From assembly GCA_014058105.1 (NCBI GenBank), contig JACGCM010001311.1:854501-918500 (forward strand): a stretch of DNA of 64,000 nucleotides, read 5' to 3'. A model generated the notes under the pieces. That model had not been told where the DNA came from. It saw only the letters and a program-made list of their open reading frames with translations, and made no database searches. Shown in pieces: positions 5,228 through 13,050 of this stretch; position 1 is the first letter of the stretch, and each line of letters opens with the position of its first letter. Both the position numbers and the translations under genes were made by a program. This DNA is from Kingdonia uniflora. Its lineage: Eukaryota; Streptophyta; Magnoliopsida; Ranunculales; Circaeasteraceae.

Positions 5228-5582
5228 CACTACAACAAATACAGGTTTTTACGTCATTGAAAAAATGACGTAAAAGGGATTTAATGTCATTTGTACAAAT
5301 GACGTCGAAGGCGATGACGTGGAAAGGTAGGGTCTAACAACGTCATTAAATAAGTGACGTGGAAAGCTAGGCACTAACGTCATTAATTAAGTGACGTATA
5401 AGGGGTTTCAAAAATTGACGTTATTGATATCCAATTCTGGTGACCGACCGGCTAATGTATTCTATTGACGTCACTAAATAACGTCATTAAAAAATGACGT
5501 AGTTTAACTCTTTTAACGTCATATTTAAAGTGACGTGGTAGCGTTTTCATATATAAACAATGATATTTTTAAAATGACGTCA
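5228..5582. repeat. CACTA terminal inverted repeat and TGACGT subterminal array
   Basis: After the CACTACAACAAAT terminus the next 350 bases hold more than a dozen copies of TGACGT or its complement ACGTCA, many paired head to head across AT-rich spacers (for example ACGTCATTAAATAAGTGACG near 5340) so that they could form short hairpins. In En/Spm elements such subterminal motifs are the binding sites of the TNPA/TNP1 protein; the same core (TGACG) is also the site of plant TGA-type bZIP factors. The first role is expected from the family; the second is an inference. Confidence 0.8.
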
Positions 5583-5959
5583 ATACCTCAAAAAATATAA
5601 AAAAAATAATCATAGTAATAAATCAAATATTGTCAATCCACTGCCCTTCCCTCCTCTCTACAAAACTACCACCATATTCTACAAAAAGGTAAAATATTTG
5701 GCTAAATTATATTACTTTCATTCAATATAATGTGCTCAAACTTAATTACTTCATTATTTAAATTACAGAGCTAAATCACTGGTAAACTTAACCAATTCAT
5801 ACAAAAATTAATAAAGCAACCATAAAGAAGGGTTTTGGATGTTTCACTGCCAGAATGTTTATAACCTTTGAGTACCTTTATATGTTTCTACTAATCTGGA
5901 TCAATTTGTAAACCTGTCAAAGCATACAAATTAAGCATTAGCCCCTTGCATAGAACAAC

Positions 5960-6283
5960 TTAGCAAATAGTATATTCACGCCTTGATAGTAAGGTAGGAG
6001 GAAGGTGGATATTCTCGATCACATATAATCGAGGATTATACCGTGAACCACTTGGATATGCACAAGCTAACACTGAAGTCTTAGCATTAATTGAAGCAAT
6101 AATTCCCGCCTTTGCTATTGAAACAGTCTGTTGCTCCATCACCTATTGAAGAGTTGAAGTAAAATTAGAATAACCACATCACTGCGAGAAGCTTCCTTAG
6201 AGCTTGAGGAACTAAACTAAAGGAAAATAAAGAAAACTCACCTCATGTAACATATTTCTTGTGTTGTCTAACATTTTGTCAAA
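5960..6283 (-). pseudogene. MCM4: Captured MCM4 fragment (two exons and the intron between them)
   Basis: Minus strand. Exon at about 6242-6283 reads FDKMLDNTRNMLHE and ends at a GTGAGT donor. After an intron of about 100 bases with an AG acceptor, the exon at 5960-6142 reads V, then MEQQTVSIAKAGIIAS and later SRYNPRL and NIHLPPTLLSR. This is the AAA+ core of the MCM4 subunit of the replicative helicase, between Walker B and the arginine-finger region. The conserved ANPSG motif has become AYPSG, and the sequence leaves homology after LLSR. The rest of the roughly 850-residue protein is missing. It lies inside the CACTA element and keeps intron junctions, so it was taken up as genomic DNA. Non-functional. 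Confidence 0.85.
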
Positions 6284-6776
6284 CTAGTTAATGCAACATA
6301 TCCCCCTATCACTAAGAACTAAGGCCCTACTCTCTAAGACCTGAAGACATAAAAATCTTTAGTCTTAGTTCTCATAATTGTACGTAATGAATTAAATACT
6401 GAGCAATATACAGTAACACGCAATAGATTTTTTTTGTCAGCAAAATTGCACTTAAGTTGAAAGCCGCACATGAGGAAAATTGGGGTAACACGAAAGGACT
6501 TAATGAGGGGGGCCAAACAGCTGGATACAGAATAAACTACAAATACTTTAGTTGGTCTATAACATGGATTATGATGCGTAGCATCCTATACGCCTACGTA
6601 TAGCATACTGAATGACTGAGAGAACTAATTATCAACTGATCTTGTATTGGTCGAGATCAACAATGTTAACAATTGCTGGCTTATACAATAAGGTAGTTCC
6701 AGTCTAGCTAAGTAATCATGCTACTATAGGTTTCAAGTTTTTAATTGGTTTGTAATGAAATGAATGTATAACATAC

Positions 6777-9512: not shown

Positions 9513-9899
9513 AACAAGCAGTTCCAAATTCACACCACTCATCAAATTAAAATTTACATATAATACAATTCAAAGCAAAAGAAAGAGCAACAGGTTCAAA
9601 ATAAAGATTTTAGATTCCACCTTGGGCACTTAAAAAAAAATGACGGACGACGAACTGTTATCCTTTTTCCTCCTCCTTTATCCGGGCTTGGGACCGGCAA
9701 TGAAACCATATAGTTCCATCGGCGGAGTTAAAAAAGATTTTACCTAAGAATAAAAAATAGTTAGTAATCAAGATATAAATGCAAAGGCCTAGCAGCTGAG
9801 AAGATAGTAAAATTCCTTCATCAATAAATAATAGAGTTCAAACTCTTAACGCGATATAACGTAAAAGGTCTAGCAAAAAACAAATAAATAATAACCATA

Positions 9900-10870
9900 T
9901 TGAGGATTGTCAAAACTTAATCCTTGATAATAAATAGGGTTAGCCAAGACACGAATGATCTGATTGCATCCCCGGTGGTTTTATGTTCTCCCCCACTAAG
10001 TGGCATATCCTCTTTTACAGCTGTTTGAATACTCACCTTTGGCATTCCATACCAAAAACCAGTTGCAACAATATTACTTGGAGAAAGCCAATATAGTCTG
10101 CAATTTATGGGTTTTAATGTTGTATGGCATCTCTGCTAGAGAGAACATATGAGAAAGTGAGTTAATTAACTGCAATCTATACATACAACATAATTTTTAA
10201 CTTGGGAACATACCGAAAGCAATATGCTACTTTCTCGAGGGGTAATTTCATCTTGAGCATTTCCTTGATTTGATTGTTCAAGGAATTAGTATTAGCGACA
10301 TCGAATTATTAAAATATAATAGTAAAGATTTTAAGTTAATATACCAGTAATTTTGTCATTTTTGTCATTTGTGCCTCCAATGACGATACTTTTTCATTCA
10401 CTTCCTTGCATACTTCTAGCTCCTCCCGTAAAACCCTCACTTCTTCTTGTAAACTTTGTATTATCACTCTACCATGTTTAACACCTTTATAAAGAGTTGG
10501 TGATATGCCAAATCCCGTTGCCTCATACCTCCAGGGTACTTTGGACCTAAAACCTCTGTGAGATCATCATCTCCAACATCTGGATTATTTGAGTTGATTT
10601 CATCTATTTTATCCTAAAAATAAAAAGTAACCATATGGTGTTAACGTAAACAATTATTATGTAACATTAAATACATAATTATAAATTACTAAGGTACATA
10701 CTATTTTTACTTGGACCAACTCATTTACAGCCTCTTCATTCTTCCTTCTGTGTGCTTTTGTCCATACAGCACACCGTCGAACCTTTTTCACGACTGATGT
10801 GGCGTCATCGGCAATCTCTTTGTTCTACAAAAAAAGAACCATATATTCTTATATGCGTAGATTAGTAATG
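9900..10870 (-). pseudogene. TNP1/TNPA-like CACTA protein, degenerate
   Basis: Minus strand. In order: KKVRRCAVWTKAHRRKNEEA near 10740-10800; LGPKYPG near 10545 followed, after a frameshift, by ATGFGISPTLYKGVKHGR; a coiled coil (SLQEEVRVLREELEVCKEVN) near 10395-10470; and IVATGFWYGMPK with TTGDAIRSFVSW near 9960-10085. This is the usual order of the C-terminal half of plant En/Spm TNP1-like proteins, which bind the subterminal repeats. At least one frameshift and several introns or deletions interrupt it. It follows the TNP2 gene in the same orientation, as in other CACTA elements. Confidence 0.65.
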
Positions 10871-11689
10871 TAAATTGGTATAAAGCATATGAAAAACAAC
10901 TACCATTTTATGTTCCAACCGAGAATATCCTAAACGACTACATGTATGGGATAATTTATGTTTTTTCCTGGTTTTGATGAGTCTTCTCCTAAGCTCTTGC
11001 AGAAACAACAATATTATTTTTAGGTTACTGACAATTGGATTAAACATTAGGGAGTTACTAAAATGTTACAATATAATCATAGAGTTATAATGGACCATAT
11101 CGAATATTCATCGTTAATGAAATTTATAGTGTTCACCTGCGGGATTCATCACATCCATAGTACCGATATTGGCAATGATATTTTTAGCCCTTTTTGAAAT
11201 TTCCATTTGAATCTGCTATGTGCATATGTTACTAATATAATTAGAATTAAAATTATCATAACTAAAATAAAAATATATGAAAGTAAGAATCTTACCAGTG
11301 TCGCTTTACTCTTCAAATTTCTTTGGTCCATAGTAATTAAGTTAGGGAAAGAAATTCACCTTTAAAAAAATTGTCATATTGATAATATATCAAATTTGAT
11401 AATACTATCAAAAGCCCAAAATTCACAAGTAAAAGTATAATACTGTCATAAATATATGCCAAGATTTTATTAATAGGATTGAACAAGTTAACAAAAGAAA
11501 TAACTAAAGTCTCGTAATTACCAGCCATATAATAAGATCTCAACTCTAAAGTATTCTAATCATATATACTAGACATTTATCAAATAAACCAAAATAAGAT
11601 CTAAAAATATTCAAGATAGAAAGAAAATAAGAATTTTTAATTTAAAAGACTTAATCTACATTGTTTTGAACTCATACTCCTTCACAGTC

Positions 11690-13050
11690 CGCACGTACAT
11701 AGCGTTCATCTTCGATATCACCAATAGGCCTAAGACTATCTATGGGTACTAACTCTTCTCGTACTTCATCGTTAGTATCCTCCAAATCCATAAACCCTCG
11801 AGGAGGTGCTCTCAAAACTACATACCACGGTGAGTCATCTGATTCCCGGGAATAAAATATTTGATAAGCTTGAGTTACAAGGATGAATGGATCTCGTGTT
11901 GAGTTATTCCATGATAAAGACTCACTAATGTAAACCCCTCATTTTTTTAATCCTTGTAGCTATACTCGCCCAATCACAAAGGAATACTGGATAACGAAAG
12001 GTGTAATAGTCTATCAAAATAATTTTTTTTATAACCCCATAGTAAGTTACAACCTTTTTAATCTGCCTCTGGTCTCTATCACTTGATCTACATAAGGTAG
12101 TAGCACACAAAGTAACTCATGAGTTTTGAGTTCCTTTCTCTGCATCCTTTGTATGAAAACGATATCCATTAATTGAATAGGATCCGCAAGTCATGGTAGA
12201 CTTTCTTGAACCATATGATAATGCTTTCAATGTAGGAGGCACAGCCTTATGTTTCATATCTTCAAAAATCTAAAAAGAATGAGAATATAATTAGGATAAA
12301 CGTCATATTCAAAATAATAGAAGACAGAGCCATCAAAATTTTTACATACCACATGTTTAAACCATTCGTTAAACTCATCTGAATGCTTTATATTAAGTAG
12401 ACCGCCATTCTTTCCTAATCGACGATCTTGAAGAATAAGTTGGCTCTTGTATTTTCTGGTACAATAAGTAGGTTATTTACTATTACAAAAATATAATCAT
12501 AAAACAAAAGTTATATACATACATATATCACTATACTTACTCTAGATACGGCTGAACTTCCTCGAAGTTAAACAAAATACAGCGATGAACTGATTCACAA
12601 TTTCCTTCAGATAGAGTGAACTCCGCTTCAGCTAACAATGGGAAACCTTCAAGAATGGTAGATTCAACATTGTCAACGTGATTTCTGTTCACTTTTCCAT
12701 TGGTATATTCATCAAGATTCAAATATTTTGTACAAAACAGGCCACACTCTTCTGCCAAGTAACATTCGGCAATACACCCTTCCGCCCTTACAGGATTTCT
12801 AACATATCCTTTTAACACCTTCATAAACCTATATATTGCATCAATATTTAATTATTGCATTAACTTCATACAAGTATTCAAAATAACTTACTAAAAGACT
12901 TAGAAAGTATGTACCTTTCAAATGGATACATCCAACGATAATGTACAGGTCCTCCAAGGCATGCCTCTTGAACCAAGTGAATAGTGAGATGTACCATAAT
13001 ATCAAAAAATGTTGGTGGAAAATACCTCTCTAACATACACATTGTCTTTA
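11690..13050 (-). pseudogene. TNP2-type CACTA transposase, C-terminal half (DUF4218 and DUF4216 regions)
   Basis: Minus strand. From right to left: LERYFPPTFFDIMVHL and LGGPVHYRWMYPFER (about 12920-13050), a GTACAT donor, then FMKVLKGYVRNP and GCIAECYLAEECGLFC (12537-12830), then LILQDRRLGKNGG and DEFNEWFKHV (about 12360-12465), SYSINGYRFHTKD (near 12130-12190), YYGVIKKI, FLCDWASI (11925-12110) and WYVVLRAPP (near 11815). These are the DUF4218 and DUF4216 parts of CACTA transposases. The upstream catalytic domain is missing: homology stops at 13050, where a short duplicated GTCTTTAATGTATT sequence and an unrelated plus-strand ORF begin. Stops occur, for example before 11925. Cannot make transposase. 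Confidence 0.85.

Follow-up and report, generated by a model that had tools for sequence, protein, structure and literature searches.

A stretch of 64,000 nt from the Kingdonia uniflora genome (contig JACGCM010001311.1, forward strand, 854,501–918,500; hereafter the window, whose positions are used throughout) contains the remains of a CACTA (En/Spm) transposon at 5228–13063, with pieces of eight host source genes lying between its TNP1-like exons and its 3′ end. An initial annotation of the locus had described a CACTA element carrying fragments of at least five host genes, several with intron junctions kept. Searches for relatives with queries from the element region returned 22 different proteins, labeled P0001–P0022, all known as predicted proteins (gene models). 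The MCM4 and AUX/IAA pieces were not part of these queries, and one query covers gene models of 0.55–1.75 times its own length. The features of the element, from its 3′ end inward, are as follows:

5228–5239, minus strand: CACTA terminal sequence, CACTACAACAAA, which is the element's 3′ end in the direction of TNP transcription
5251–5582, both orientations: subterminal array of TGACGT/ACGTCA, 17 hexamers in 332 nt
5791–5913, minus strand: 3′-end exon common to P0011 and P0014, acceptor TTTGACAG; an exon of the element or old cargo
5981–6142, minus strand: MCM4 exon piece, acceptor TTCAATAG kept; Pfam MCM, E = 6e-20
6777–6909, minus strand: AUX/IAA exon piece retaining acceptor and donor, with a single in-frame stop; Pfam AUX_IAA, E = 4e-15
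7400–7825, plus strand: lectin piece in two blocks (about 7400–7602 and 7717–7825), frameshifted; the only antisense cargo
8047–8122, minus strand: exon Y of a putative two-exon host gene without a family name, AG/GT flanks; P0003 residues 336–362, 74%, E = 2.9e-7
8581–8753, minus strand: exon X, one in-frame stop; P0003 residues 279–336, 84%, E = 3e-23
8812–8889, minus strand: piece of an ERI-1-like exonuclease exon, broken off within the exon, with acceptor TTCTTCTTAG retained; P0007 residues 55–87, E = 6e-11
8896–9078, minus strand: BPI/LBP exon piece; P0001 residues 237–297, 85% over 61 aa, E = 3e-25; P0002, 82%
9154–9285, minus strand: KDSB-like (CMP-KDO synthetase) piece; P0012 residues 243–286, E = 5e-12
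9389–9476, minus strand: DGD1-like exon, both splice sites kept; P0006 90%, P0008 90%, P0003 71% (longer match)
9920–11331, minus strand: TNP1-like (Ptta/En/Spm) exons, matching P0003 and P0011–P0020
11675–13063, minus strand: C-terminal part of TNP2 (DUF4218, DUF4216), ending abruptly near 13063; Pfam E = 6e-23, 1.4e-10 and 4.7e-4; P0016

As a control for chance, the 22 relatives were reversed and compared with the window at a threshold of E < 0.02, which gave 0 matches against 52 for the real proteins, all within 5228–13063; this control addresses chance similarity only, as the 22 had been pre-selected by searches with the element region. A match of P0010 at 18195–18079 (E = 0.049), outside the element, was set aside as chance.

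The CACTA end and the TNP remains

The CACTA end and TNP genes described in the initial annotation were both recovered, as a terminal sequence at 5228, a hexamer array and remains of TNP2 and TNP1. The terminal repeat beginning with CACTA (CACTACAACAAATACAGG, starting at 5228) is present at one end only, and this 31-nt end occurs a single time in the 64 kb when up to three mismatches are allowed. Because the TNP genes lie on the minus strand, 5228 is the 3′ end in the sense of the genes. The subterminal array holds 17 of the 35 TGACGT/ACGTCA hexamers in the window, compared with a maximum of 4 per 333 nt in 200 first-order Markov simulations.

What is left of TNP2 comprises DUF4218 at 12881–13063 and 12540–12851, above the cut-off, and DUF4216 at 11675–11938, below the curated cut-off; we take these domains to be markers of TNP2. 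Transposase_21 had no Pfam match among the 20 stretches scanned, and the catalytic part was not found. The TNP1-like sequence has a frameshift near 10.52 kb and its middle exons are missing, and residues 38–155 of P0011, which are TNP1 sequence, have no match in the window. Among the relatives, PF03004 was detected in P0011, P0013, P0014 and P0018, each time below the curated cut-off (best score 27.9 versus 28.7 bits). No partner CACTA end, that is, a matching inverted terminal repeat, lies within the 64-kb window, and the copy is therefore incomplete; since TNP2 is also cut at about 13063, the 5′ half of the element is absent. Given the missing partner end, the abrupt cut in TNP2 and the unmatched part of TNP1, the window copy cannot be autonomous. 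Just past the cut point, at 13094–13483 on the plus strand, is an open frame with a Cauli_VI/RNase H1 N-terminal domain.

The host exon pieces

Read in the TNP sense, the cargo runs DGD1-like, KDSB-like, BPI/LBP, ERI-1-like, X, Y, lectin (in the opposite orientation), AUX/IAA, MCM4 and the 3′ exon. All five sources named at the outset hold, at differing strength: MCM4 and AUX/IAA through Pfam and the Protein Data Bank (PDB), lectin through a match below the cut-off, and BPI/LBP and the ERI-1-like exonuclease through relatives. The count of at least five was an understatement, as three further sources were found, namely the KDSB-like gene, the DGD1-like gene and the gene of exons X and Y.

The MCM and AUX/IAA pieces both pass Pfam thresholds, with best PDB matches to MCM4 (E = 4.7e-18) and IAA4 (E = 1.8e-8), respectively. 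The lectin piece probably comes from a receptor kinase: it matches B_lectin at E = 4.5e-5, below the curated cut-off, and also matches P0004, P0005, P0009 and P0010, of which P0009 and P0010 carry B_lectin in precomputed annotation and P0005 has a kinase match and a sub-threshold S-locus match. P0004 (GIB67_031396) shares 30 identical residues with the lectin piece from 7717; it has the lectin block of the window at its start and a WD40/Sof1 protein at its end and may be another chimera. For the BPI/LBP piece, P0001 contains both LBP/BPI domains (PF01273 and PF02886). The name ERI-1 is our assignment, shared with the initial annotation, for an exon whose relative P0007 has an RNase_T domain.

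Identification of the KDSB-like piece runs through P0012, residues 270–311 of which match kdsB models (E = 3e-7 and 7e-6, below the cut-off), CTP_transf_3 (E = 7e-4) and PDB 3tqd (E = 0.003). The window match and the kdsB match overlap over residues 270–286 only (17 residues), with weak kdsB and PDB scores, so that the putative KDSB identity of 9154–9285 is moderately supported. A Pfam match of 9099–9269 to DUF5917/HOOK-interacting protein (E = 0.008) was rejected, because another frame of this DNA gives matches to P0012 and P0008, the former of which has matches to KDSB models. The name DGD1 is presumptive on our part; P0006 had no Pfam, NCBIfam or PDB match. Exons X and Y, which are joined in frame in P0003, probably derive from one and the same host gene; in the PDB, P0003 matched only PPR and unrelated repeat proteins, none of them over X and Y. 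Readings of other cargo as MOR1, WDR26, LHY and a sugar transporter are impressions of ours that enter none of the counts.

Protein matches cover 1,367 of the 4,703 nt of 5228–9930 with MCM4 and AUX/IAA excluded, and the remainder is intron-like or without a match. AUX/IAA, X, lectin and TNP1 are interrupted by stops or frameshifts, and the window copy therefore has no long fused reading frame. The cargo is not repeated elsewhere in the 64-kb window at E = 1e-4.

Splice sites, judged by eye, bear out the retention of intron junctions. Both an AG acceptor and a GT donor are kept in the DGD1-like exon, X, Y and AUX/IAA; the KDSB, ERI-1, MCM4 and 3′ exons keep an acceptor, and BPI keeps neither site. 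The DGD1-like/X and X/Y junctions of P0003 are consistent with the sites in the window. With seven of the eight sources in the TNP sense (all but lectin) and at least one splice site in six of those seven, read-through from the TNP promoter could splice the cargo as cassette exons. The same orientation means that antisense RNA against the parent genes, which had been suggested for such composites, would not be the natural expectation, the lectin piece excepted.

Relatives and the origin of the cargo

Twenty of the 22 matched proteins come from K. uniflora; the remaining two, from Chenopodium quinoa (E = 0.05) and Oxalis oulophora (E = 0.09), had the poorest scores in the search that found them. 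Thirteen of the 20 models (P0003 and P0011–P0022) carry the TNP1 of the window or a sister type, 11 of them matching the TNP1 or TNP2 of the window directly and P0021 and P0022 being linked only through P0003 and P0011, over an exon absent from the window. Of these 13, selected on the basis of their TNP1 match, nine have a host-family match as well; seven of the nine pass a curated Pfam cut-off, and P0011 and P0012 do not. The families include PPR, mitochondrial carrier, protein kinase, Myb, glycosyltransferase 20 (two models), QWRF and DUF7903, together with CCT-eta in P0011 and P0014 and a TCP-1/cpn60 match in P0013. P0018 and P0019 have TNP1 only, and the additional sequence of P0015 and P0016 matched no family. 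P0021 and P0022, both of which match glycosyltransferase 20, share their opening TNP1 exon and show 55% identity across 429 columns; P0022 is the model that also matches QWRF and DUF7903.

Several relatives share cargo with the window. Residues 1–362 of P0003 (GIB67_029117) are colinear with it through TNP1 (11331–10214), the DGD1-like exon, X and Y, and include an identical stretch of 17 residues. P0012 reads TNP1, KDSB and then aldehyde dehydrogenase, and P0008 reads DGD1-like, the KDSB stretch of the window and then aldehyde dehydrogenase. In P0011 and P0014, TNP1 is followed by CCT-eta and then by an exon equivalent to 5791–5913 by the 3′ end of the window element (67% over 39–42 aa; E = 3e-11 and 2e-11, respectively). 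Capture by a CACTA element, as initially proposed, thus finds support beyond a single locus, in the same TNP1 and cargo order of P0003 and P0012 and in the other cargo with the same 3′-end exon of P0011 and P0014. Overlapping cargo sets of this kind are what stepwise capture within one family predicts. Separately, P0007 (GIB67_040317) has a BPI/LBP exon fused to an ERI-1-like exonuclease, with the ERI-1 exon start seen in the window but another BPI exon, which suggests a BPI–ERI1 chimera outside the window element.

Directly observed are the CACTA end with its array, the TNP remains and the cargo, together with the shared cargo order in another predicted gene and the different cargo of family members. 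These observations point to one transposon family that gathers host exons step by step in the space from TNP1 to the 3′ end. We consider it very probable that the window holds a truncated, non-autonomous copy of such a CACTA family, which collects host DNA between TNP1 and the 3′ subterminal array, and that the pieces of eight genes were acquired stepwise. Host DNA would enter at a tolerant site between TNP1 and the array, most likely through aberrant excision or repair involving neighboring elements, as proposed for Pack-CACTA elements. Pieces, mostly single exons with intron edges, would be added one step at a time; the composite would then be copied as a whole by transposition and spread by TNP proteins supplied in trans. 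Read-through would splice the sense-strand cargo, as it does in the soybean element Tgm-Express1.

Several points weigh against this reading. With a single terminal repeat, there is no way to check for a target-site duplication or to set the limits of the unit. The relatives are known only as predicted proteins, and such models may merge neighboring genes. No other case of TNP1 joined to MCM4, AUX/IAA, lectin, BPI or ERI-1 was seen, MCM4 and AUX/IAA having been outside the relatives search, and the exon at 5791–5913 could be old cargo rather than an exon of the element. Lastly, the BPI/ERI-1 join in P0007 comes without TNP sequence, so both pieces may stem from a single chimera that already existed, in which case there were fewer independent captures.

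That last point leads to a variant in which source loci were chimeras to begin with, such as a BPI–ERI1 fusion, so that fewer steps sufficed and independent captures number well below eight. The BPI piece (8896) and the ERI-1 piece (8889) are separated by 6 nt, P0007 shares the ERI-1 exon start, and X and Y probably represent one gene. However, the BPI exon is not the same in the window and in P0007, and the P0003 model has the DGD1-like exon, X and Y without BPI, ERI-1 or KDSB, although these could hide in its introns. We regard this variant as possible but somewhat unlikely.

Much less probable is that the host pieces arrived later in a dead CACTA relic, as separate insertions or repair filler (Helitrons, Pack-MULEs or break-repair patches). 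A broken copy, pieces that break off within exons, an inverted lectin piece and the lack of a second CACTA end in the window would all fit such an origin. Against it, the DGD1-like exon, X and Y recur after TNP1 in P0003 with their order kept, and KDSB recurs after TNP1 in P0012. Boundaries around the individual pieces, which the initial annotation had named as grounds for abandoning capture, were looked for, and of 24 inverted-repeat pairs (seed 10, 5200–13100) none was both >20 nt and >80% complementary, Helitron ends being outside this search. Least probable of all is that the TNP1–host fusions are gene-prediction mergers with flanking genes and that there is one composite only and no capture-prone family: the relatives are indeed predicted proteins, and P0015, P0016, P0017 and P0020 lack a second member with the same host-identified cargo, but CCT-eta lies between TNP1 and the shared 3′ exon in both P0011 and P0014, one cargo block is common to P0021 and P0022, and the KDSB stretch is common to P0008, P0012 and the window.

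The locus provides a dense gene-capture record, in which overlapping sets among relatives (with KDSB and no DGD1-like exon, with DGD1-like and KDSB, and with DGD1-like and X/Y) could order the captures and put proposed mechanisms of CACTA capture to the test. It also calls for caution with gene models, as nine of the 13 TNP1-bearing K. uniflora models examined, chosen for their TNP1 match, resemble transposon–host chimeras. A bolder extension, which we hold to be doubtful, is that the K. uniflora family may act as a standing exon trap, its TNP1 unit reading into an expandable 3′ bay filled with host exons to yield spliced TNP1–host fusion transcripts at many loci. If so, exon-trap composites would accumulate in a lineage reported as putatively asexual. 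Fusions, if transcribed, would amount to a natural exon-shuffling experiment in such a plant. Kingdonia is a single-species genus of the Circaeasteraceae and, in the accessible text of one study, is called putatively strictly asexual, yet signs of recombination are reported there and cryptic sexuality is argued (PMC9866071). The interest of the locus lies in exon collecting across a whole family, within a plant held to be putatively asexual, and in the chimeric gene models.

Elsewhere in the window, an inverted repeat pair (1–359 and 15246–15606; 361 nt, 93% identity) brackets the element region at a distance of about 15 kb, with its left arm reaching the window edge; the two arms may mark the termini of a larger element, or one repeat may be present twice. 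At 16000–21100, several repeats, both direct and inverted (up to 947 nt, 68–92% identity), likely form a nested repeat cluster. An F-box/LRR host gene of 655 aa, open throughout, lies at 45918–47882 on the plus strand; we take it to resemble an EIN3-binding F-box protein. A 51-residue piece of this gene within one relatives query gave no match among models of 0.55–1.75 times the query length.

Comparison with known systems

The closest published counterpart is Tgm-Express1, a soybean CACTA element that, in the accessible text, carries five unrelated host genes in 5.7 kb, gives 12 alternatively spliced transcripts and has its cargo exons spliced as cassette exons (PMC1947982). The number of sources here, initially singled out as striking, is indeed higher (eight versus five), but a many-gene cargo as such is not new. 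Whereas Tgm-Express1 is described there with Tgm inverted repeat ends and transcripts detected by PCR with reverse transcription, the window copy has one end and TNP1/TNP2 remains and is described from its DNA.

The Tpn1 family of Ipomoea nil, as far as the accessible descriptions go, combines shared terminal regions with many different captured host genes (PMC5105172, PMC8195511) and comprises 28 types (PMC8195511). In non-autonomous Tpn1 elements the interior is described as replaced by host sequence (PMC5105172, PMC8195511), in contrast to the window copy, where cargo lies downstream of decayed but recognizable TNP1 and TNP2. Pack-CACTA elements of Arabidopsis, maize and rice hold host DNA from several loci between CACTA ends (PMC8903248), and their proposed mechanism, aberrant excision or repair involving neighboring elements, is retold in the accessible part of a second paper (PMC13317346). 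The first of these studies classes an element that matches a transposase as autonomous, or as a derivative of an autonomous one, rather than as Pack-TYPE (PMC8903248). The TNP2 and TNP1 remains therefore keep the window copy from being filed as Pack-CACTA. The Pack-TYPE trait of fragments between ends takes a partial form here, the fragments sitting between one end and TNP1 and the second end being absent. CACTA elements of maize are a further close precedent for gene capture.

Host gene fragments also occur in CACTA-like elements of Chenopodium that bear a transposase-associated domain; in the accessible account the fragments lie in the 5′ region outside the coding sequence (PMC8978399), whereas those in the window lie 3′ of TNP1. 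On wheat chromosome 3B, 140 CACTA capture events were reported, mostly of gene fragments, with 17 captured genes possibly arising from exon shuffling; these captures are annotated genes flanked by two elements of the same family, and the accessible part of the description does not include a dense many-gene exon mosaic (PMC4290129). Our search found no literature on Kingdonia and CACTA elements together, the papers listed for Kingdonia with transposable elements dealt with other topics, and as subscription papers were mostly outside that search, novelty in print is not claimed. The process is known, and the window element is a rich new example of it rather than a new process; what distinguishes it is a source count above that of Tgm-Express1, cargo placed 3′ of TNP1 and overlapping cargo among family members.

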